Shown: one piece after another, positions 9,727 to 21,257 of the stretch
How positions within the stretch are numbered: the first letter of the stretch is position 1
Layout of the letters: every line of letters starts with the position of its first letter
Source: Desulfobulbaceae bacterium
Lineage (GTDB): Bacteria; Desulfobacterota; Desulfobulbia; Desulfobulbales; Desulfocapsaceae
Length of the DNA stretch: 35,591 bases
Assembly (NCBI GenBank): GCA_019163335.1
Contig: JAFLKM010000077.1
Coordinates: 1-35,591, forward strand
Direction: 5' to 3'
Notes under the pieces: model-generated
Databases searched by the model: none
Told to the model about the DNA's origin: nothing
Seen by the model: the letters and a program-made list of their open reading frames with translations, nothing else
Program-made: the position numbers and the translations under genes

Positions 9727-10071
9727 TCAGAGAGTACAGATTCTGCCCCGGTCGAGCTGGGGTAGGCGGGCCACCATCGCCGCAAGCTGGGGATCGTCTT
9801 CCAGTGATCCGTGAAGATGTTCCAGCAGAACCCGGGCAAGCTCGGATTCTTCCCCCGTACCCAGGCGGTAGATAATCCACAATCCTTCCTTGCGAAAGCT
9901 GACAAGCCCGGCTTCTTCGAGGATTTTCATATGTTTTGAGACCGTGGACTGGGCAAGCCCGAACAGGTGCTGCAATTCACAGACACAAAGTTCCTGGCGG
10001 CCCAAAATCTTGACCATCCTGACCCGATTGGGCTCAGACAGCGCCTTCATTACCCGGACAAACGATTTCAT
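9727..10071 (-). CDS. arsR: ArsR-family metalloid-responsive repressor
   Basis: The 114-aa product has the ArsR/SmtB winged-helix: MKALSEPNRVRMVKILGRQE, the metal-site segment ELCVCELQHLFGLAQ (CVC, alpha-3 type As(III)/Sb(III) site), the recognition helix AQSTVSKHMKILEEAGLV, and the wing FRKEGLWIIYRLG. Such repressors leave DNA when arsenite binds the cysteines. The ATG at 10071 follows GGGAG on the - strand. A palindrome about 30 nt upstream is the probable operator. It is the first gene of the arsR-arsP operon. Family assignment is firm. Confidence 0.93.
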   Translation of the reverse strand: MKSFVRVMKALSEPNRVRMVKILGRQELCVCELQHLFGLAQSTVSKHMKILEEAGLVSFRKEGLWIIYRLGTGEESELARVLLEHLHGSLEDDPQLAAMVARLPQLDRGRICTL

Positions 10072-10100
10072 TGCGGTGCTCCCTGGTATCCTGTTTTGCT

Positions 10101-10120
10101 ATATCGCCATATAGCGATAT
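10101..10120. promoter_or_regulatory. Probable ArsR operator upstream of arsR
   Basis: ATATCGC at 10101-10107 and GCGATAT at 10114-10120 form a perfect 7-bp inverted repeat with a 6-nt AT-rich centre, 30 nt before the arsR ATG. ArsR/SmtB repressors bind imperfect AT-rich 12-2-12-type palindromes in this position. The location and symmetry support autoregulation of arsR-arsP. Confidence 0.65.
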
Positions 10121-10250
10121 GCTGAAAGGTAGTCTGCTTTTCCTGAAAAATCAAGGCTTGAAAAAAAGTGGATCATTGTTTGCCGTGATGCAAAGGGCGG
10201 AGATGGCTTTAGCAGGGCTGCATCTTTTTTTGATGCCTTTAAAAAACTGT

Positions 10251-10278
10251 TTGACAATCTCGGGGAATAATATATTGT
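10251..10278 (+). promoter_or_regulatory. Candidate sigma70 promoter of the perR-type gene, with overlapping palindrome
   Basis: TTGACA at 10251-10256 is followed after 16 nt by TATTGT at 10273-10278, 45 nt before the chosen start. The -10 region overlaps the near-palindrome AATAATATATTGTT (about 10266-10279), which resembles a Fur/PerR AT-rich box and would suit autoregulation. The -10 match is only four of six. Confidence 0.4.
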
Positions 10279-10323
10279 TGCAATTAAGAACAGTTCCTAT
10301 TTACCTTGACGGTGCTTGATGCC

Positions 10324-10800
10324 ATGACCGACGCCACAAAATCTACCCATGTATTACAGCACCAGATGGAATCCTTTGAGGAGTCCTGCCGGGCGGCCGA
10401 TCTCAAGTTGACCCATCAACGGCTCGAGATTTACCGGGAACTGGCTAAGGCCACCGACCATCCCTCGGCGGAGACTCTGCATAAGCGATTGCACCAGAGT
10501 ATGCCCACTCTGTCGCTGGATACGGTCTATCGTACCCTGACCACCTTTGAACAGCATCACCTGATCAAAAAGGTGGAAACGGTTGATAGTCAGGCTCATT
10601 ACGAGGCGCAGATGCAGCAGCATCACCACCTCATCTGTGATACCTGTAAGGAGATCATGGATTTTCAGTGGAGCTCCTTTGATGCCGTCAGTGTCCCGGA
10701 AGATATTCTCCAATGGGGCGCAATTAAAAATAAAAGTATTACCATTTACGGCACCTGCCGGAAGTGTCAGGCGCTGAAGGAGAAGAAAAAGTTGGAGTAG
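10324..10800 (+). CDS. perR: Fur-superfamily regulator, PerR-like peroxide sensor
   Basis: The 158-aa product has the Fur fold: winged helix LKLTHQRLEIYRELAK, DTVYRTLTTFEQHHLI, then the metal region HHHLICDTCKEIMDF. Two CxxC pairs (Cys105/108 and Cys145/148) would hold the structural zinc. Asp113 in IMDF occupies the place where PerR has Asp and Fur usually has Glu. His46 in DHPSAETLH matches the PerR His that is oxidised by peroxide. These residues, plus rubrerythrin and catalase just downstream, favour PerR over Fur. The ATG at 10324 was chosen; GTG at 10312 and TTG at 10306 are in-frame alternatives, and none has a strong ribosome binding site. Subtype remains an inference. Confidence 0.82.
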   Translation: MTDATKSTHVLQHQMESFEESCRAADLKLTHQRLEIYRELAKATDHPSAETLHKRLHQSMPTLSLDTVYRTLTTFEQHHLIKKVETVDSQAHYEAQMQQHHHLICDTCKEIMDFQWSSFDAVSVPEDILQWGAIKNKSITIYGTCRKCQALKEKKKLE

Positions 10801-10826
10801 AATGGCTCTTTTTTTTCGCTAACTGG

Positions 10827-10841
10827 TAGTAAAGATTACTA
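10827..10841. promoter_or_regulatory. Candidate PerR/Fur box upstream of rubrerythrin
   Basis: TAGTAAAGATTACTA is a 6-3-6 inverted repeat, and a second TAGT/ACTA pair follows at once. It resembles the 7-1-7 PerR box TTATAATNATTATAA at 9 of 14 fixed positions. It lies just after the regulator gene and 245 nt before rubrerythrin. It could serve as an rbr operator with a long leader. Confidence is limited. Confidence 0.4.
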
Positions 10842-10982
10842 CTTAGTTTTTACTATTATGTGTATCGGTTTATTACTTTGCACGTTTACCAGCCTCTTGG
10901 ATTCGAGCAGGAAATAAGCTATACCAATTAAGAATGAATAGAAACTTCGGGGAAAATATCTTTTCCCGAAATAAATACGAAA

Positions 10983-10998
10983 CCCCGATAAACGGGAT
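10983..10998 (-). repeat. Copy 2 (inverted) of the dispersed 16-bp element
   Basis: Read on the - strand this is ATCCCGTTTATCGGGG, identical over 16 nt (18 with the following TT) to the copy at 21305. It lies in the gap between the perR-like gene and rubrerythrin (10801-11085), which otherwise holds the candidate operator at 10827 and no gene. Confidence 0.55.
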
Positions 10999-11085
10999 AA
11001 GTGCCTTTCGCAGATTATTTTCCTGCGAAAATAAAACAAGAAAACAATCTGTAAGGTACTAACCATCAAAACAGGAGAACACCAC

Positions 11086-11661
11086 ATGGCCAGCTTAAAA
11101 GGAACCCAAACCGAAAAAAACATTTTGACCGCGTTTTGCGGAGAGTCACAGGCCCGTAATCGTTACACCTATTTTGCCGCCCAGGCCAAAAAAGAAGGGT
11201 ATGTGCAGATTTCTCATATCTTCGAGGAGACGGCCGATCAGGAAAAAGAACACGCCAAGCGTCTTTTTAAACTGCTTGAGGGCGGTGAGGTCGAAATCAC
11301 CGCCTCCTTCCCGGCCGGGGTCATTGGAACCACGGTGGAGAACCTTATGGAGGCAGCAGGTGGTGAAAATTACGAACACACCACCATGTATCCAGGATTT
11401 GCTGCGGTGGCGAGAGAGGAAGGTTTTCCGCTTCTTGCCGTCATCTTTGAATCCATCGCCGTGGCCGAAAAACAGCATGAAAAACGCTATCTGGATTTAA
11501 AGGCCAACATTGAATCCGGCCGCGTCTTTCAGCGCGAGGAGAATGTCACCTGGCGTTGCCGGAACTGCGGCTATATTCATACCGGCAGCAAGGCCGTCGA
11601 AAAATGTCCAGCCTGTGATCATCCCCAGGCCCATTTTGAATTGTTGGGTGAAAACTGGTAG
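11086..11661 (+). CDS. rbr: Rubrerythrin
   Basis: Rubrerythrin reduces hydrogen peroxide to water in the cytoplasm of anaerobes, taking electrons from NADH through rubredoxin. The 191-aa product has the ferritin-like diiron domain at about residues 1-146, with [15 protein letters not shown] (Glu20), [15 protein letters not shown] (Glu/His ligands near 53-56) and [17 protein letters not shown] (near 122-131). The rubredoxin-like domain at the C-terminus has CRNC (158/161) and CPAC (174/177). The length is typical. The ATG at 11086 follows CAGGAG. Its place between a PerR-like regulator and catalase suggests a shared peroxide response. A hairpin follows the gene. Confidence 0.97.
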
Positions 11662-11701
11662 TCCATTGCAGACTGTCAACCCAGTTTGACAGGTATTATC
11701 T

Positions 11702-11732
11702 CTCTGAGTCCCGCATCCTGCGGGGCTCAGAG
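11702..11732 (+). terminator. Probable terminator after rubrerythrin
   Basis: CTCTGAGTCCCGCA pairs with TGCGGGGCTCAGAG (14 bp, one G-T wobble) around a 3-nt loop, about 40 nt after the rbr stop. The T-rich tail (CTTCTTTA) starts about 8 nt later, so it is strong as a hairpin but imperfect as an intrinsic terminator. The rest of 11662-11971, up to catalase, holds no gene that I can support. Confidence 0.6.
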
Positions 11733-11971
11733 GGAAGCCTTCTTTAATAGTCGCCTTTAAGTCCAGCCCGTCGTTGACTCCACCGTGCGGCCCTTTTTTC
11801 GTTGTTCTTGTACTGTCTCGCCGCCGCTTGTCCTGCCATTGTATGCCTGATCTGAATGGTGCATGGAATGAAGTGTTTCTTTGAAATCAATGATCGTATC
11901 AGTCCGGTAGTGATGTTGAAGAGGTAAATTGTACAGGCTGAATAACACTCAACCCGTAAAGGAGAAAAATC

Positions 11972-13432
11972 ATGAGCGATAAATCGAAAAAAAAATTGAC
12001 CACCAACGCCGGCGCGCCGGTTCCTGACAATCAAAATGTCCTCACTGCCGGCCCGCGTGGCCCGCAACTGTTGCAGGATGTCTGGTTCCTCGAAAAGCTT
12101 GCCCACTTTGACCGGGAGGTCATTCCCGAGCGGCGGATGCACGCCAAGGGGTCCGGGGCCTACGGAACTTTCACCGTCACCCATGACATCAGCAAGTACT
12201 GCAAAGCCAAAATATTCTCCAAGATTGGCAAGAAAACCGAGCTTTTCGCCCGCTTCTCCACGGTTGCCGGAGAGCGCGGAGCAGCCGATGCCGAGCGCGA
12301 TATCCGTGGCTTTGCCCTGAAATTTTATACCGAAGAGGGGAACTGGGACATGGTGGGCAATAACACCCCTGTCTTCTTTCTGCGCGATCCCCTAAAATTC
12401 CCGGATCTTAACCATGCCGTCAAGCGTGACCCGCGCACCAATATGCGCAGCGCCAAAAATAATTGGGATTTCTGGACCTCACTGCCCGAGGCCCTGCACC
12501 AGGTCACCGTGGTCATGAGTGACCGTGGGATTCCCGCAAGCTACCGGCACATGCACGGATTCGGCAGCCATACCTTCAGTCTGATCAACGCCAAGAACAA
12601 ACGGTTCTGGGTCAAGTTTCATTTTGTCTGTCAGCAGGGAATTGAAAACCTCACCGACGCCGAGGCCGAGGCCATAGTGGGAAAGTGCCGCGAGAGTCAT
12701 CAGCGCGATCTCTACGAGAGTATTGAAAAGGGAGATTTTCCCCGCTGGAAGCTCTGCATTCAGGTGATGCCGGAAAAAGACGCGGCCACCTGTCCTTATC
12801 ATCCCTTCGACCTTACTAAGGTCTGGCTGCATAAGGACTATCCGCTTATTGAGGTCGGGATGTTTGAGCTGAATCGCAATCCGGAGAATTATTTTGCCGA
12901 GGTCGAGCAAGCCGCCTTCAATCCGGCCAATGTGGTGCCCGGCATTGGATTTTCGCCGGACAAGATGTTGCAGGGACGTCTTTTTTCCTACGGGGATGCC
13001 CAGCGCTACCGCCTTGGCGTCAATCACCACCTGATTCCGGTGAACGCCTCACGCTGCCCCTTCCACAGCTATCACCGGGACGGCGCCATGCGTGTTGACG
13101 GCAACCATGGCAGCACCCTGGGCTATGAGCCGAACAGCTATGGTGAATGGCAGCAGCAGCCGGATTTTGCCGAGCCGCCATTAAATCTCGAAGGAGCCGC
13201 CGATCACTGGGATCACCGTGAAGATACGGATTATTACAGCCAGCCCGGAAAATTATTTCGTCTGATGAGCAAGAAACAGCAAAAGGAACTCTTTGAGAAC
13301 ACCGCTCGCGGCATGGGCGATGCCCCGAAAGAGATCAAGATTCGCCACATCGGCAACTGCCTGAAGGCTGATCCCGCCTATGGCGAAGGCGTGGCGAAAG
13401 CGCTGGGGATTTCCCTTGATGAGGTCAAGTAG
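11972..13432 (+). CDS. katA: Monofunctional haem catalase
   Basis: The enzyme dismutates hydrogen peroxide to water and oxygen. The 486-aa length fits the small-subunit clade. The distal His57 lies in [16 protein letters not shown], the catalytic Asn is at 130/131 in [12 protein letters not shown], and the proximal haem-ligand Tyr340 lies in [14 protein letters not shown]. The signature block [18 protein letters not shown] is intact. No signal peptide is present, so it is cytosolic. The ATG at 11972 follows AAAGGAG at good spacing. It sits downstream of perR and rbr but behind the rbr terminator, so it probably has its own promoter in 11744-11971, where I could not pick out a convincing -35/-10 or box. 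Confidence 0.97.
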
Positions 13433-16028: not shown

Positions 16029-16057
16029 TTGACAGTACGCTTTTGCATCTTGAAAAT
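16029..16057 (+). promoter_or_regulatory. Candidate promoter of the nth-xth fusion gene
   Basis: TTGACA at 16029-16034 is followed after 17 nt by GAAAAT at 16052-16057 (four of six to TATAAT), 35 nt before the chosen ATG. The -35 is perfect and the -10 weak. The rest of the 15794-16092 divergent gap is AT-rich near the decarboxylase start, with no other feature that I can support. Confidence 0.4.
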
Positions 16058-16092: not shown

Positions 16093-17559
16093 ATGTCTTT
16101 TGATATCGATCAAGCTCTCCAGATCCTCGAACTCGAGGTGCAGAATTATCAGGTTCCTGTGGTGGATCTGATTGCCGTCCAGACCCATGATCCGTTTAAG
16201 GTTCTGGTGGCCACCATCCTTTCCGCCAGAACCAAGGACGAGGTCACCGCCCAGGCCGCCGCCCGTCTGTTTGCTCAGGCCCCCACTCCCCAGGCATTGG
16301 CCGTGCTCGATGAGGCGACCCTTCAAAAGTTGATCTATCCCGTCGGATTTTACAAGAACAAGGCTGGCTATCTGGCCGCCCTGCCCGGGGTTCTGGAAAA
16401 GAATTTCGCCTCTCAGGTCCCGGATGAGATCGACCAGCTGATCACCCTGCCCGGTGTCGGCCGCAAAACCGCCAATCTGGTGCGGGCCATAGCGTTTCAC
16501 AAGCCGGCCATCTGTGTGGACACCCATGTCCATCGTATCATGAATATCTGGGGATATGTGCAGACGAAAAACCCTCTGGAGACCGAGATGGCCCTGCGGG
16601 AGAAGCTTCCTGAACATTACTGGATCCGGGTTAACTCACTGCTGGTGGCCTTTGGTCAGGGGACCTGCCGGCCTGTGGGGCCGCACTGTGAACGTTGTGT
16701 GCTGGCCGATTTTTGTCCCCGTATCGGGGTGACTCCGCGAAAATTGCGGGCCCTGCCGAAGGAACAGGATACCGCAATTTTGCCGCAGACGAAGGCAATC
16801 AAGCGGATGATCTCCTGGAATGTCAATGGCCTGCGAGCGGTGGCAAAGAACGGCTTTACCGAGATTGTGGGGGATTTGGCCCCGGATCTCCTGGCCCTGC
16901 AGGAGATCAAGGCCATGCCTGAACAACTGCCCGATTCGGTACGGGAGATGGCCGGGTTCACTGCCTATTTCTATCCGGCCCTGAAAAAAGGGTACTCAGG
17001 TGTTGCGACCTATAGTCGTATCCCGGCGGATACCATTCAGCATGGGATTGGTGACCCGCGCTTTGATGACGAGGGGCGGGTCTTGACCCTGGAGTTTGCT
17101 GATTTTTATTTCGTGAACTGCTATTTCCCCAATTCCCGGCATGATCTGAGCCGGCTGGATCTGAAGCAGGAGTTTAATCGGACTCTCCAGGAATTTTTGA
17201 AGGGGCTGGCGGTTAAAAAATCGGTGGTCATCTGTGGTGATTTCAATGTCGCCCACACCGAAAGAGATCTGGCCAATCCTGCGGCCAATGTCAAAAATGC
17301 CGGTTTCACCCCGGAAGAGCGGCAATGGATGGATGCCTATATTCATGAGGGCTGGATAGATACCTTCCGGGCCTACAACCAGGACTCCGGCCGTTATTCC
17401 TGGTGGAGTTATCGCAGCAATGCCCGCGAGCGGAATATCGGCTGGCGTATTGATTACTTCTTTGTCGATCCCGCCAGCCGGGCGCGGATGGTGGGGGCGG
17501 ATATCCTTGATGACATCCCGGGATCAGATCATTGCCCGGTCGTCCTTGATTTCAAGTGA
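16093..17559 (+). CDS. Fused endonuclease III (Nth) - exonuclease III (Xth) base-excision repair protein
   Basis: One 488-aa frame holds two full repair enzymes. Residues 1-212 are endonuclease III: the HhH motif LPGVGRKTANLV with catalytic Lys125, CVDTHVHRI with Asp143, and a 4Fe-4S loop with Cys192, 199, 202 and 208 in C-x6-C-x2-C-x5-C spacing. Residues 239-488 are an exonuclease III/AP endonuclease: ISWNVNGLRAV (Asn243), LLALQEIKAMP (Glu271), VVICGDFNVAHTE (Asp383, Asn385), NIGWRIDYFFV and the terminal GSDHCPVVLDF (Asp479, His480). The linker is only about 25 residues. The glycosylase/lyase would open the lesion and the AP endonuclease would clean the 3' end. ATG 16093 is preferred over TTG 16069. 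All key residues of both halves are present. Confidence 0.95.
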   Translation: MSFDIDQALQILELEVQNYQVPVVDLIAVQTHDPFKVLVATILSARTKDEVTAQAAARLFAQAPTPQALAVLDEATLQKLIYPVGFYKNKAGYLAALPGVLEKNFASQVPDEIDQLITLPGVGRKTANLVRAIAFHKPAICVDTHVHRIMNIWGYVQTKNPLETEMALREKLPEHYWIRVNSLLVAFGQGTCRPVGPHCERCVLADFCPRIGVTPRKLRALPKEQDTAILPQTKAIKRMISWNVNGLRAVAKNGFTEIVGDLAPDLLALQEIKAMPEQLPDSVREMAGFTAYFYPALKKGYSGVATYSRIPADTIQHGIGDPRFDDEGRVLTLEFADFYFVNCYFPNSRHDLSRLDLKQEFNRTLQEFLKGLAVKKSVVICGDFNVAHTERDLANPAANVKNAGFTPEERQWMDAYIHEGWIDTFRAYNQDSGRYSWWSYRSNARERNIGWRIDYFFVDPASRARMVGADILDDIPGSDHCPVVLDFK

Positions 17560-17689: not shown

Positions 17690-17735
17690 TTTTGCAGATC
17701 CTGTTCTTGATTTTTCAAGAACAGGATCTGCAAAA
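17690..17735. repeat. Perfect 21-bp inverted repeat in a gene-free region
   Basis: The arm at 17690-17710 (starting TTTTGCAGATCC) is the exact reverse complement of 17715-17735, with a TTTT loop. Flanking GTACCTT (about 17671) and AAGGTAC (17733-17739) extend the symmetry with a bulge. It lies 130 nt after the nth-xth stop. The T/A ends are part of the stem, so it could be a bidirectional terminator or a palindromic insertion. Confidence 0.8.
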
Positions 17736-17902: not shown

Positions 17903-18211
17903 CTAGGAAATGTAAAATTTTGTTTTCAATCATCTCATTTTGCCGCGCAGAACTTCCTGAACTTTTACCAAAATCATTGTGGAGCAACTTTAACGTCCTT
18001 TATTTTAAGGATTTTTTTTGTGAATAACTTGTGGCAGGTTCTTGAAAGAAAAATTTCTGGCCAGGTATAGAAATTGCTGAAAAAATGGCAGGGTCGGGGA
18101 GGCAACACTGTATTACCTCGATTCAACTCCAAGAGTTAACTTAGTGCCTGTTTTAGTTGATTTGGAAGGGGTGTAAGCGTTTTTTTTAAAATTTTCTAGA
18201 TGGAGGAAATT

Positions 18212-19246
18212 ATGAAGAAAATGATGTTAAGTGTTGCTGCAGGTTTGTTTTTGTTGCCAGGTGTGGGTCTGGCAGATAGCTTGACGCCTGGTTCCTTCTC
18301 GGCCGCGATAAATGTGGGTGAAAGTGTTACAATCCACAAAGCGCTGACGGTCACCGAGGAGGCTGGATCCTTCGCACCGGTTGATGTCTTTTTTCTCGCA
18401 GACACGACCGGTAGTATGGGCCCGCAGATTGCCGCTGTCAAGACTGGCGCGGCTTCAATCATGACCAACACAGCGTCTCTTGGGGATGTGCACTACGCAG
18501 TTGGTGAGTATAAAGACTTTGGTGATGTTTATGTATACCACCGGAATCAGGATCTCACCGGCAACACAGCCGCCGTGCAGACAGGCATTAATCTGTGGGG
18601 CGCCTCCGGTGGCGCGGACATACCAGAGGCCAATCTCTTCGCGCTGAAGGAGGCCGCGGATACTACCTCATGGCGTACCGGGTCGACCCGCATCATGGTC
18701 TGGTTTGGCGATGCCCCGGGCCATGATCCCAGTGGCGTAGTAACTGAAGCATCTGCGACAGCCGCGCTGGTAGCTAAAAACATCGCCGTTGAAGCGCTGG
18801 ATGTTGGAGATTTAGATTCTACCGGTCAGGCAACAAGAATTGCTGCTGCCACTAGTGGTCACTATTATAGCGGTATCGACGTTAATAATATCGTTGACAC
18901 CATTACCGCAGCCATCACCACCATTGTCGACGAATATACCACTGTCGCCCTTGATCTCACTGAAGTTCCCGCCGGTCTCACCGCAACAGCAATCCCAGCA
19001 AGTTATACCGGCGACTGGAATCGGAGCGTTGACCGTATATTTAATTTTGACGTGGTCATCACCGGAGATGCTGAGGGAACCTATGATTTTAATATTTATG
19101 GCCTGGTGGATGGGTCACGGGTTGCCACGGAACTTGACCATATCGACGTCGGGGCACCGGTGCCGGAGCCTGCTACCATGCTGTTGTTCGGTACGGGCCT
19201 GAGCGCACTTGCCGGTGTCATCAGGAGAAAAAGAAATCAGAAGTAG
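18212..19246 (+). CDS. Exported von Willebrand A domain protein with PEP-CTERM sorting tail
   Basis: The 344-aa product has a signal peptide (about 1-21, MKKMMLSVAAGLFLLPG, cut near GLA-DS). A VWA domain follows, with MIDAS motif DTTGSM at 64-69 and the later SGGADIPEAN and WFGDAPGHDP loops. A beta-rich region comes after it, then a C-terminal VPEPATMLLFGTGLSALAG followed by RRKR. That tail is the PEP-CTERM signal, recognised by an exosortase at the inner membrane for export to the surface. VWA domains bind metal and protein ligands, so a surface adhesion role is likely but unproven. The ATG at 18212 follows GGAGG at 5 nt; ATG 18200 is an in-frame alternative. A terminator follows. No exosortase lies in the window. 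Confidence 0.88.
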   Translation: MKKMMLSVAAGLFLLPGVGLADSLTPGSFSAAINVGESVTIHKALTVTEEAGSFAPVDVFFLADTTGSMGPQIAAVKTGAASIMTNTASLGDVHYAVGEYKDFGDVYVYHRNQDLTGNTAAVQTGINLWGASGGADIPEANLFALKEAADTTSWRTGSTRIMVWFGDAPGHDPSGVVTEASATAALVAKNIAVEALDVGDLDSTGQATRIAAATSGHYYSGIDVNNIVDTITAAITTIVDEYTTVALDLTEVPAGLTATAIPASYTGDWNRSVDRIFNFDVVITGDAEGTYDFNIYGLVDGSRVATELDHIDVGAPVPEPATMLLFGTGLSALAGVIRRKRNQK

Positions 19247-19274
19247 CAAGCAGGTTTAACTCTTGGTATCATTA

Positions 19275-19304
19275 AAGGCAGATGGAATTTCATCTGCCTT
19301 TTTT
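19275..19304 (+). terminator. Intrinsic terminator after the VWA/PEP-CTERM gene
   Basis: GGCAGATG at 19277-19284 pairs with CATCTGCC at 19291-19298 around a 6-nt loop, and six T follow at 19299-19304. This is a textbook intrinsic terminator 28 nt after the stop. It separates the VWA gene from the TPR gene. Confidence 0.85.
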
Positions 19305-19352
19305 CTCTTTTCAGGCTTTTTTCGTCATTTAACACTCTCTGGATGCGACGAT

Positions 19353-21257
19353 ATGAATTTATTCTCTTCTGTTCAGCAACCGCGATATTTCTCAATGATT
19401 CTTGTCGGTATCTTCTTTTTAAGTATGGGGGCCACCAGTTCACCGGCCACTCAACAGATAGGCGTGGGAGATTCGGCAAATCCTGATCCCGTTCATTCGA
19501 TAGCCCTGCCTGACATGGACAACCTTCTACTGTCAGCCGAGGACCCGACGTTCGACTTTTCAATGGAATCTGAATTAACTGTTGATACGAAAAACCTGGA
19601 GAATGTCCAGGCCCTTGTGAAAAAAGGAGAATATGGCGAGGCGCAAAGGCAGGCAGAACAGTTTATTAAAATGAATCCCGGCTACGGTCCCGGTTATGAA
19701 ATTCTTGGCCTTGTTTTTCTCTTGCAAAATCAGCTTGACGATGCAGTAAAAGCCTTGGAGAAGGCCATTGAATTGGACCGGAAGCATAGCTCTGCCCTCA
19801 CTTATCTGGGCAGTATCTATATGGGGAGAAACCAGTTAGAACAAGCAAAACAGACTTTTTTGAAGGCGATTGAGAGAAATCTCAACGATCGATTTGCCTA
19901 TCAGCGACTGGGGATGCTCTGCGAAAAGGCAAACGAAATAGATAAGGCGGTGTTCTATTTTGAACAGGGGTTAAAAGGCACTGCTCCAGACTACATCGGG
20001 GTCAAGGTGAATCTGGCCCGGCTCTATAATGTCAAACGACAATTTGACAAAACCATAGCACTTCTTGAACCTGTCCTGAAACCAGACACGAAAAATGCCC
20101 CAGGCCATATTCTTCTGGGCACGGCATATTTGTCTACCCAGCAGACAGACAAGGCGATGGAGCGGTATCGCGCGGCTGCAGCAATTGATCCCGCGCAGGG
20201 GAATCTTTCGTTGGGCATTGCCTATCGGATGGCCGGCAAGTTGGAAGAATCAAGGCAGATACTGCTGGAGGCTGAAAAAGTGAAATCCAGTGACCCTTTT
20301 ATCCAGTTTGAACTGGCGGAAACCGCCAATCGGCAAGGTAATTATCAAGAGGCTCAACAAAGAATTCTCAAGGCCATTGAAACAGGGTATCCAAAAATGC
20401 GCGCTCTCCGCAGTCTCGCTGCGTTGCAAATGAAAAATAAAAAATTTGAGGAGGCTATCCAGACATTAAACCAGGTGATATCCAGCAAGGAATCAATCAT
20501 GGAGGATCAATTTGTCCTCGGAGAGGCTTTGCAGTTCAGCGGACAGTTTGGGCCTGCTGAAAAGCTCCTTTTGTCTGTATCTAAAAAACACCCAACGGAG
20601 GCGGCCCCCTGGTATCGTCTCGGGCTTCATTACGGTTTGATACGCGATTACAAGGCGGCAATAGCTAATTTTAATAAGGCGAAGGCTATTGCTCCGGATA
20701 ATCCTGATATATTGAAAGCACTCTCCTTGGCTTATCTTCAAAGTGGAGAAAAAGATAAGGCTATACCGTTGGCAGAGGAGGTTTGTCGTCTTGATCCAAA
20801 GAATATAAACAATGCTTTTTTTCTGGCCTCCTTGTACCAGGATGCAGGAAAAACAACTGAGGCCATTAAGGGTTATAAAGAGATCCTTGCAGAAAAACCA
20901 AAGCATGCGCCCAGTCTTAATAACCTCGCCGATTTGACAGCACAAAGTGGAGATTTGCCTGCCGCTTTGCAGCTAGCGAATCAGGCTGTGGTAGCTGATC
21001 CGGAAAACAGTCGCTATCTTGATACATCAGGTTGGATATCCTTCCAGAGTGGAGATATTGACATTGCTGCAAGTACTTTGGAAAAGGCACTTAGCCTGAA
21101 ACCTGACTTTCCGTTACTGAGCTTCCATCTTGGCAAGGTTTACCTGCAAAAGGGGAACACAGAAAAAGCAAAACTACATCTTCAGTCGGCTCTCAAGCAA
21201 TCGACTTCTTCCCCCTGGAAAGAGGAAGCCACAAAAATACTGGAATCAATACAGTAG
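19353..21257 (+). CDS. Exported tetratricopeptide-repeat protein
   Basis: The 634-aa product has a hydrophobic N-terminus (SMILVGIFFLSMGATSSPA at about 14-32) consistent with a signal peptide or anchor. From about residue 75 to the end it consists of tandem TPR units of 34 residues, for example GYEILGLVFLLQNQLDDAVK, ALTYLGSIYMGRNQLEQAK and AFFLASLYQDAGKTTEAIK. TPR arrays are protein-binding scaffolds. Some TPR proteins beside PEP-CTERM genes take part in exopolysaccharide or surface assembly; here that is suggested only by the VWA/PEP-CTERM neighbour. The start at 19353 is chosen because it gives an export signal; the frame is open back to 19263 and the ribosome site is weak. It lies behind a terminator, so it has its own promoter. 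Confidence 0.8.
   Translation: MNLFSSVQQPRYFSMILVGIFFLSMGATSSPATQQIGVGDSANPDPVHSIALPDMDNLLLSAEDPTFDFSMESELTVDTKNLENVQALVKKGEYGEAQRQAEQFIKMNPGYGPGYEILGLVFLLQNQLDDAVKALEKAIELDRKHSSALTYLGSIYMGRNQLEQAKQTFLKAIERNLNDRFAYQRLGMLCEKANEIDKAVFYFEQGLKGTAPDYIGVKVNLARLYNVKRQFDKTIALLEPVLKPDTKNAPGHILLGTAYLSTQQTDKAMERYRAAAAIDPAQGNLSLGIAYRMAGKLEESRQILLEAEKVKSSDPFIQFELAETANRQGNYQEAQQRILKAIETGYPKMRALRSLAALQMKNKKFEEAIQTLNQVISSKESIMEDQFVLGEALQFSGQFGPAEKLLLSVSKKHPTEAAPWYRLGLHYGLIRDYKAAIANFNKAKAIAPDNPDILKALSLAYLQSGEKDKAIPLAEEVCRLDPKNINNAFFLASLYQDAGKTTEAIKGYKEILAEKPKHAPSLNNLADLTAQSGDLPAALQLANQAVVADPENSRYLDTSGWISFQSGDIDIAASTLEKALSLKPDFPLLSFHLGKVYLQKGNTEKAKLHLQSALKQSTSSPWKEEATKILESIQ

Follow-up and report, generated by a model that had tools for sequence, protein, structure and literature searches.

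A single polypeptide that joins an endonuclease III-type (Nth) enzyme to an exonuclease III/APE1-family (Xth) AP endonuclease is encoded by most genomes of a bacterial order, whose members are sulfur bacteria that live in mud and which is taken as the Desulfobulbales from the names of the carriers. The fusion is real, ancient and spread across the order; it joins enzymes for two consecutive steps of repair, and the residues of both active sites are intact and strongly constrained. The gene was found in a stretch of 35,591 nucleotides from a Desulfobulbaceae bacterium, termed here the window. It lies on the forward strand at 16093..17559, begins with the ATG at 16093, ends with the stop codon at 17557–17559 and has 488 codons plus the stop; the product, as read from the open reading frame, is 488 amino acids long. 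Within this one protein, Pfam locates HhH-GPD at residues 39–173 and Exo_endo_phos at residues 240–480, and NCBIfam locates nth at residues 18–199 and xth at residues 238–488. A preliminary description, made from the sequence alone, had proposed a natural fusion of two complete enzymes. This is borne out, and the fusion is conserved far beyond the window: the same domain order, for which the description advised a search in other genomes, is present in 198 of the 257 genomes of the order. A promoter-like site upstream of the gene, TTGACA-17-GAAAAT (16029..16057, forward strand), is weakly indicated by a consensus scan, which gave three such sites in the region vs 2.2 expected.

The window's genome is a draft in 103 contigs, and one could suppose that an assembly or sequencing error joined two separate genes. 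This is extremely improbable. The in-frame junction recurs in the 198 genomes, among them some that consist of a single contig (for example G028, G030, G040 and G047), and it is present also in several culture-collection strains. In a set of 58 relatives it is found in 45, the window's genome included; in two of these (G007 and G050) a contig end truncates the gene, but the junction is still covered. A missed stop or frameshift between residues 212 and 239, the weak point singled out in the preliminary description, is thus excluded, and the artefact reading is ruled out by the order-wide occurrence of in-frame junctions.

Identical fused copies were collapsed for alignment, which left a set of 84 distinct fused sequences. 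The N-terminal half (residues 1–217; 16093..16743, forward strand) is a predicted HhH-GPD glycosylase/AP lyase by Pfam, NCBIfam and PDB matches, and its structural model has 12 helices. It scores 86.8 bits with Pfam HhH-GPD (PF00730; cut-off 26.2) and 172.9 bits with NCBIfam nth (TIGR01083), which is under the naming threshold of 211.7; it is for this reason named Nth-type here and kept out of the TIGR01083 equivalog. In a search of PDB sequences, the nearest match is 9nzc, an endonuclease III entry (163 bits), followed by human NTHL1 (7rdt, 153.6 bits), and 2abk, which we take to be E. coli Nth, scores 99 bits. Lys125 (16465..16467) is the predicted glycosylase/lyase nucleophile and presumably corresponds to E. 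coli Lys120; Asp143 (16519..16521), the predicted catalytic Asp, presumably corresponds to E. coli Asp138. Both are on the forward strand and invariant in 84/84 fused sequences, as are the four cysteines (Cys192, 199, 202 and 208) of the 4Fe-4S loop C-X6-C-X2-C-X5-C (16666..16716, forward strand). The catalytic Lys of the HhH hairpin is absent in MutY, and a MutY identity of this half is ruled out by Lys125 together with the scores (the mutY model gives 75.1 bits vs 286.5). L129, four residues past Lys125, is invariant as well (84/84). In human NTHL1 the catalytic Lys is given as K220, and a change of L224 to Lys is described as impairing the lyase (PMC13022620). Glycosylase and beta-lyase activities of the Nth half are predicted from family membership.

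The C-terminal half (residues 238–488; 16804..17556, forward strand) is an ExoIII/APE1-family AP endonuclease by NCBIfam and PDB matches. It scores 288 bits with TIGR00633 (cut-off 99.05) and 274.4 bits with TIGR00195 (cut-off 182.55), and 137.8 bits with PRK11756, the E. coli ExoIII subfamily, which is under the cut-off of 280. Among PDB sequences Mth212 (3fzi) is the top match at 284.7 bits, with APE1 at ~214 bits and 1ako, presumably E. coli ExoIII, at 94 bits; no stretch spanning both halves was seen as the best one in the best 60 of the 79 entries. The Mth212 match has 48–49% identity and a TM-score of 0.93–0.94 on the target, and a Foldseek search with the model likewise places Mth212 first, the best 50 of 633 rows being all ExoIII/APE1-family. 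The label "exonuclease III" in the preliminary description is therefore right as to family and is refined as to subtype, which is nearer Mth212 and human APE1 than E. coli ExoIII. Active-site residues N243, E271, Y344, D383 and N385 are invariant in 84/84 fused sequences, and so are N347 and G404. D454 is present in 83/84, and D479 and H480 in 82/84, the remaining rows being gaps in truncated sequences. The earlier statement that the catalytic residues and the 4Fe-4S loop are all present thus holds for the window's protein and for the 84 aligned sequences alike. As with the first half, the AP endonuclease activity is predicted from the family.

The inter-domain linker (residues 218–237; 16744..16803, forward strand) is variable in length and poorly conserved. 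The preliminary description gave it 25 residues; a linker is indeed present, but its length is 20–26 residues depending on the borders chosen, and 21 between residues 217 and 239. Measured between these two alignment columns in the 84 sequences, it ranges from 9 to 50 residues with a median of 14. The frequency of the majority residue is 0.44 in the linker vs 0.76 in the Nth half and 0.71 in the Xth half. AlphaFold2 modelling on 51 aligned fusions gives a mean pLDDT of 83, which falls under 50 at residues 217–233, and a pTM of 0.57. The model shows two folded domains; with that pTM there is no confident mutual orientation of the domains, as in a flexible tether, and the linker, which has no conserved sequence, is predicted to be disordered. 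Palindromic repeats are found in some linkers, with 25-nt arms of 100% identity in locus L103, 33-nt arms of 79% in L261, and weaker ones in L100 and L272; none was found in the L262 linker at the same setting. The linker therefore tolerates insertions.

The count for the order was obtained as follows. A match at E <= 1e-55 is present in 228 of the 257 genomes and 29 are without a match at that level. The match reaches E <= 1e-178 in 189 genomes, a level that needs both halves (a single half gives ~1e-107); this is a hand count, and its weaker members were judged on E-value, not aligned range. Two genomes (G1143 and G1144) with single open reading frames and long linkers were added, and so were seven more that span the junction, six with contig-end breaks (G050, G1017, G1027, G1034, G1133 and G1179) and one with a frameshift inside Nth (G172), for a total of 198. 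The other 30 matched genomes comprise 11 of family f1 that are unfused, eight with split genes, seven with Nth only (G042, G048, G1006, G1153, G1154, G1155 and G1168, where the G1168 frame stops at the locus end) and four to which fusion status was not assigned (G046, G1016, G1102 and G1183). G048 is 99% complete; it encodes an Nth of this type, but no Xth match was found in it. Named carriers of the fusion include Desulfobulbus rhabdoformis DSM 8777, Desulfogranum marinum DSM 2058, Desulfopila sp. IMCC35008, Candidatus Electronema and Desulfocapsa.

The frameshifted locus of G172 (L117) has overlapping open reading frames that cover query residues 3–155 and 145–487, and the apparent frameshift may be a sequencing error or mark a pseudogene. 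Three genomes (G1068, G1145 and G1146) have two full-length fused copies apiece. One of the G1068 copies is 85% identical to that of the window and may be on a stray contig; the extra copy in G1145 and G1146 may be a true second copy or contamination. A whole-genome search of the window's genome finds, besides the fused gene, two weak HhH-GPD relatives with 26% and 30% identity. Weak HhH-GPD relatives in frames of 362–465 amino acids also lie within a few kb of the fusion in G017, G019, G028, G029, G030 and G035, and a 9.4-kb contig of G022 (C5, locus L133) has three HhH-GPD genes: the fusion and weak relatives in frames of 381 and 224 amino acids.

Outside the order the fusion is rare. A sample of 395 genomes of the phylum has 16 genomes of the order among the matches listed, all fused (one of them frameshifted), and two fused genomes that are not of the order (G125 and G263); 191 genomes have no match, and their kinship to the order was not seen. 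No fusion was found in 348 genomes of Bacillota or 201 of Chloroflexota at E <= 1e-75, or in 240 of Verrucomicrobiota at E <= 1e-70, cut-offs so strict that fusions with both halves more diverged would be missed; the phylum labels are from the names of the loci used as centres. Among 42 matching plasmid records, none has one place that covers 80%. Sixteen outside loci, chosen for a match past the domain border or a long open frame, each have one half only, and neither an unfused nth–xth pair nor an independent fusion was seen in the loci read outside the order. No earlier account of an Nth–Xth fusion was recognised in the open-licence PMC literature, as judged by titles and the starts of abstracts.

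The history of the fusion was approached with a tree of rpoB from 56 genomes (quick search, SH-aLRT support), which is without G003 and G056 (no match), G031 and most same-genus genomes. The order forms one clade (100), in which the unfused G045 branches first. Its other families represented here form one clade (99), and both main branches of this clade (93 and 99) hold fused genomes. The unfused f1 genomes, of which 7 of the 11 found were examined in trees, form a clade (100) that is nested inside fused f1 genomes (99, then 100). The fusion predates several families of the order. The presence of fused genomes on both main branches, together with the nested position of the f1 clade, is most simply read as a single origin of the fusion, close to the base of the order, with a later loss in the f1 subclade.

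Trees of the two halves add to this. The trees took in 42 of the 84 fused sequences; rows with long branches were dropped, L149 from the careful Nth tree and L148, L150 and L104 from the careful Xth tree, and the Nth tree is also without L117. The free f1 Nth proteins group with the fused Nth halves. It should be pointed out that a topology in which the fused Nth halves form one clade that excludes the free f1 Nth is unrejected by the AU test (p 0.226), so the nesting of the free f1 Nth rests on the rpoB tree more than on the Nth tree. The free f1 Xth is of a different Xth lineage and groups with other families of the phylum (99). Since the f1 Nth is with the fused halves and the Xth is of another lineage, it follows that these genomes have lost the fused Xth half and use another Xth in its place. 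A search beside the free f1 nth genes gave no convincing Xth remnants. A 22% match downstream of nth in G020 was rejected, as it lies inside an open reading frame that resembles a response regulator.

G125 and G263 fall outside the order in the rpoB tree, yet they have the whole fusion, which they probably received by transfer. In two other families, f50 and f48, free Xth genes (L120, L121, L122 and L123) nest with fused Xth halves. The AU test of the fused Xth halves as a clade without these genes is borderline (p 0.0456), and the group was named after the quick tree. One may suggest that these free genes are domains released from a transferred fusion; no convincing Nth remnants were found beside them.

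What other AP endonucleases these bacteria have bears on how the fused protein might work. Forty-four of the 45 fused genomes among the relatives have no second Xth over the cut-off, the exception being G022; the two Xth matches of G050 come from a single gene whose ends lie on different contigs. A whole-genome search likewise finds a single Xth in the window's genome. As the fused half is usually the sole Xth, it presumably also serves AP sites that come from other glycosylases and from spontaneous base loss. Of the 45, 35 have an Nfo match that passes the cut-off, the window's genome among them, and therefore the fusion is usually not the sole AP endonuclease. The ten fused genomes without Nfo are G001, G022, G029, G033, G034, G035, G037, G038, G047 and G053, of which G047 is assembled as a single contig, at 99% completeness. 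In nine of the ten (all but G022) the fusion is the sole AP endonuclease found of the Xth and Nfo families.

It appears moderately probable that the fusion places two consecutive steps of base excision repair in one polypeptide, with hand-over favoured by the proximity that the linker maintains. The Nth half would excise oxidised pyrimidines and could cut the strand at the abasic site by beta-elimination, which would leave the 3′ end blocked (3′-PUA). The APE1/Mth212-like half would cleave 5′ to the abasic site by hydrolysis, or trim the blocked end to a 3′-OH. A disordered linker could hold the second enzyme near the product of the first, and the AP site or 3′-PUA might then be more likely to be taken by the tethered partner than left exposed. 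From the logic of the pathway, a direct hand-over of the abasic product, as put forward in the preliminary description, is plausible. Published descriptions of free-standing enzymes bear on these steps: Nth-type beta-lyases are said to leave 3′-PUA (PMC12190888), the NTHL1-type lyase is characterized as slow and frequently bypassed by APE1 (PMC12190888; PMC13022620), and NExo and NApe of the APE1 family are both credited with 3′-PUA phosphodiesterase activity (PMC6294502).

In eight genomes of the order (G055, G1005, G1057, G1135, G1137, G1138, G1140 and G1141) nth and xth are separate neighbouring genes, and stops or frame changes in the linker mark the cut. The split loci were read by our own translation; for G1005 and G1135 this differs from the tabulated open-frame figures, and stops are plainly present in both. 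The G1005 locus contains 147 N, and MAG errors are possible for any single split case. Five of the eight genomes belong to genus g292 (family f5). Among their five split genes, four (L260, L262, L263 and L264) have a GAGG-5 nt-ATG where xth begins; the fifth (L266, from G1137) is without GAGG. The same GAGG-5 nt-ATG is found in frame and at the same place in the fused loci L261 and L265 of g292, and in L056, L064, L100 and L103, which are taken as g292 by sequence. It is kept in fused and split loci despite the differing length of the preceding linker.

A fusion without coupling has to be set beside the hand-over reading: a single ancestral fusion might have been kept for 1:1 co-expression, or be neutral, with the two enzymes acting independently. 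The variable and unconserved linker fits this, and so do the repeated splits into neighbouring genes of the same direction, an arrangement that would preserve co-expression. It also fits that one clade has another Xth in place of the fused half, and status as the sole Xth demands action in trans on AP sites produced by other enzymes. However, the persistence of the in-frame form in 198 of 257 genomes, when fission comes easily, suggests some benefit of linkage, and the uncoupled fusion is regarded as possible and on the whole somewhat unlikely. Because of the recurrent gene splitting in eight genomes and the Xth-half replacement in f1, the tether is dispensable. We would argue that it is ancient yet dispensable, and at most an advantage, not a necessity.

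A further reading is that one gene gives two products, some lineages making a free Xth as well by internal initiation at the linker/Xth border. The preliminary description suggested such a start at the ATG of Met239 (16807..16809, forward strand). For the window's gene this is unsupported and is rejected on low conservation (Met in 15/84) and a weak best upstream anti-SD energy (−3.3 kcal/mol). Elsewhere there is more to consider. In 8 of 42 non-redundant genes an in-frame ATG with an anti-SD energy <= −5 stands within 10 codons before the Xth core, compared with an expectation of 1.1 drawn from other stretches of these genes and 3.7 from codon shuffles (3/300 reach 8); for all 84 genes the count is 18 vs 2.1 and 10.1, respectively (2/300). 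The conserved GAGG-5 nt-ATG of g292 and related loci, in fused and split genes alike, points the same way. On the other hand, the codon-shuffle control removes much of the excess, the linkers being rich in A and G, the GAGG is missing from one split g292 gene, related rows are not independent, and the signal may be a relict of a once separate xth. Two products from one gene are thus judged unlikely. A composite of these ideas seems doubtful to a similar degree: a channelling fusion in which the APE1-like half takes the AP site before the slow lyase acts, so that repair of oxidised bases in these bacteria would rarely release an abasic site or a 3′-PUA, and from which some lineages also make a free Xth at the conserved internal start, which lets the gene split functionally.

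The hand-over reading can be placed beside known systems. E. coli Nth and Xth catalyse the same consecutive steps and have in common with the fusion the Lys/Asp pair, the 4Fe-4S motif and the Xth active-site set. They are separate proteins, distant in score, whereas here there is one polypeptide; human NTHL1 and APE1 have sequences nearer to the fusion halves than those of the E. coli pair are. Glycosylases and APE1 are believed to relay intermediates, a model termed "passing the baton" (PMC12190888). The human proteins are separate and coordinated by transient contacts and scaffolds, and the fusion has instead a covalent tether. Mth212, an ExoIII homologue and DNA uridine endonuclease of Methanothermobacter, is the best match to the Xth half in sequence and structure, but it is free-standing. 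Another natural fusion of two DNA-repair activities is described for Ferroplasma acidarmanus, the AGT-endonuclease V protein AGTendoV (PMC10779285); it is archaeal, and unlike the Nth–Xth fusion it joins other enzymes that are not consecutive in one pathway. Neisseria NApe and NExo are of the same enzyme family as the fused Xth half. In Neisseria, AP endonuclease and 3′-phosphatase are described as split between two free proteins (PMC6294502). By our own reading, the invariant G404, in a GFxPEER loop, would match the position of the blocking His167 of NExo (PMC6294502).

It is an old question whether intermediates of base excision repair pass directly from one enzyme to the next or are set free and captured again, and it has been studied mostly via transient protein contacts. 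Here a glycosylase and an AP endonuclease form a natural covalent pair that most of a bacterial order has retained, and close relatives have versions that are split or in which one half is replaced; the value of linkage is thereby measurable by direct comparison.

About 130 bp past the fusion stop there is a perfect 21-bp inverted repeat with a 4-nt gap (17690–17735); a 16-base segment of the arm has no exact match elsewhere in 285 loci. Upstream (9727–13432), genes for an ArsR-type regulator, rubrerythrin and catalase lie close together as an oxidative-stress cluster; in the flanks of relatives (71 loci, <= 3 kb) they turn up in one locus at most, a reach too short to judge. The 71 loci are L033–L103, of which 68 are fused and within the set of 84 sequences. 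Seven neighbours from the window were tried in these loci, and lgt is the only one that recurs, the others being in 0–3 loci. In 33 of the 71 it lies downstream and convergent, 20–2175 bp from the fusion. The window's own lgt is ~3.8 kb from the fusion, and between the two (18200–21257) are genes for a von Willebrand A-domain protein with a C-terminal PEP-CTERM motif and then a TPR protein.
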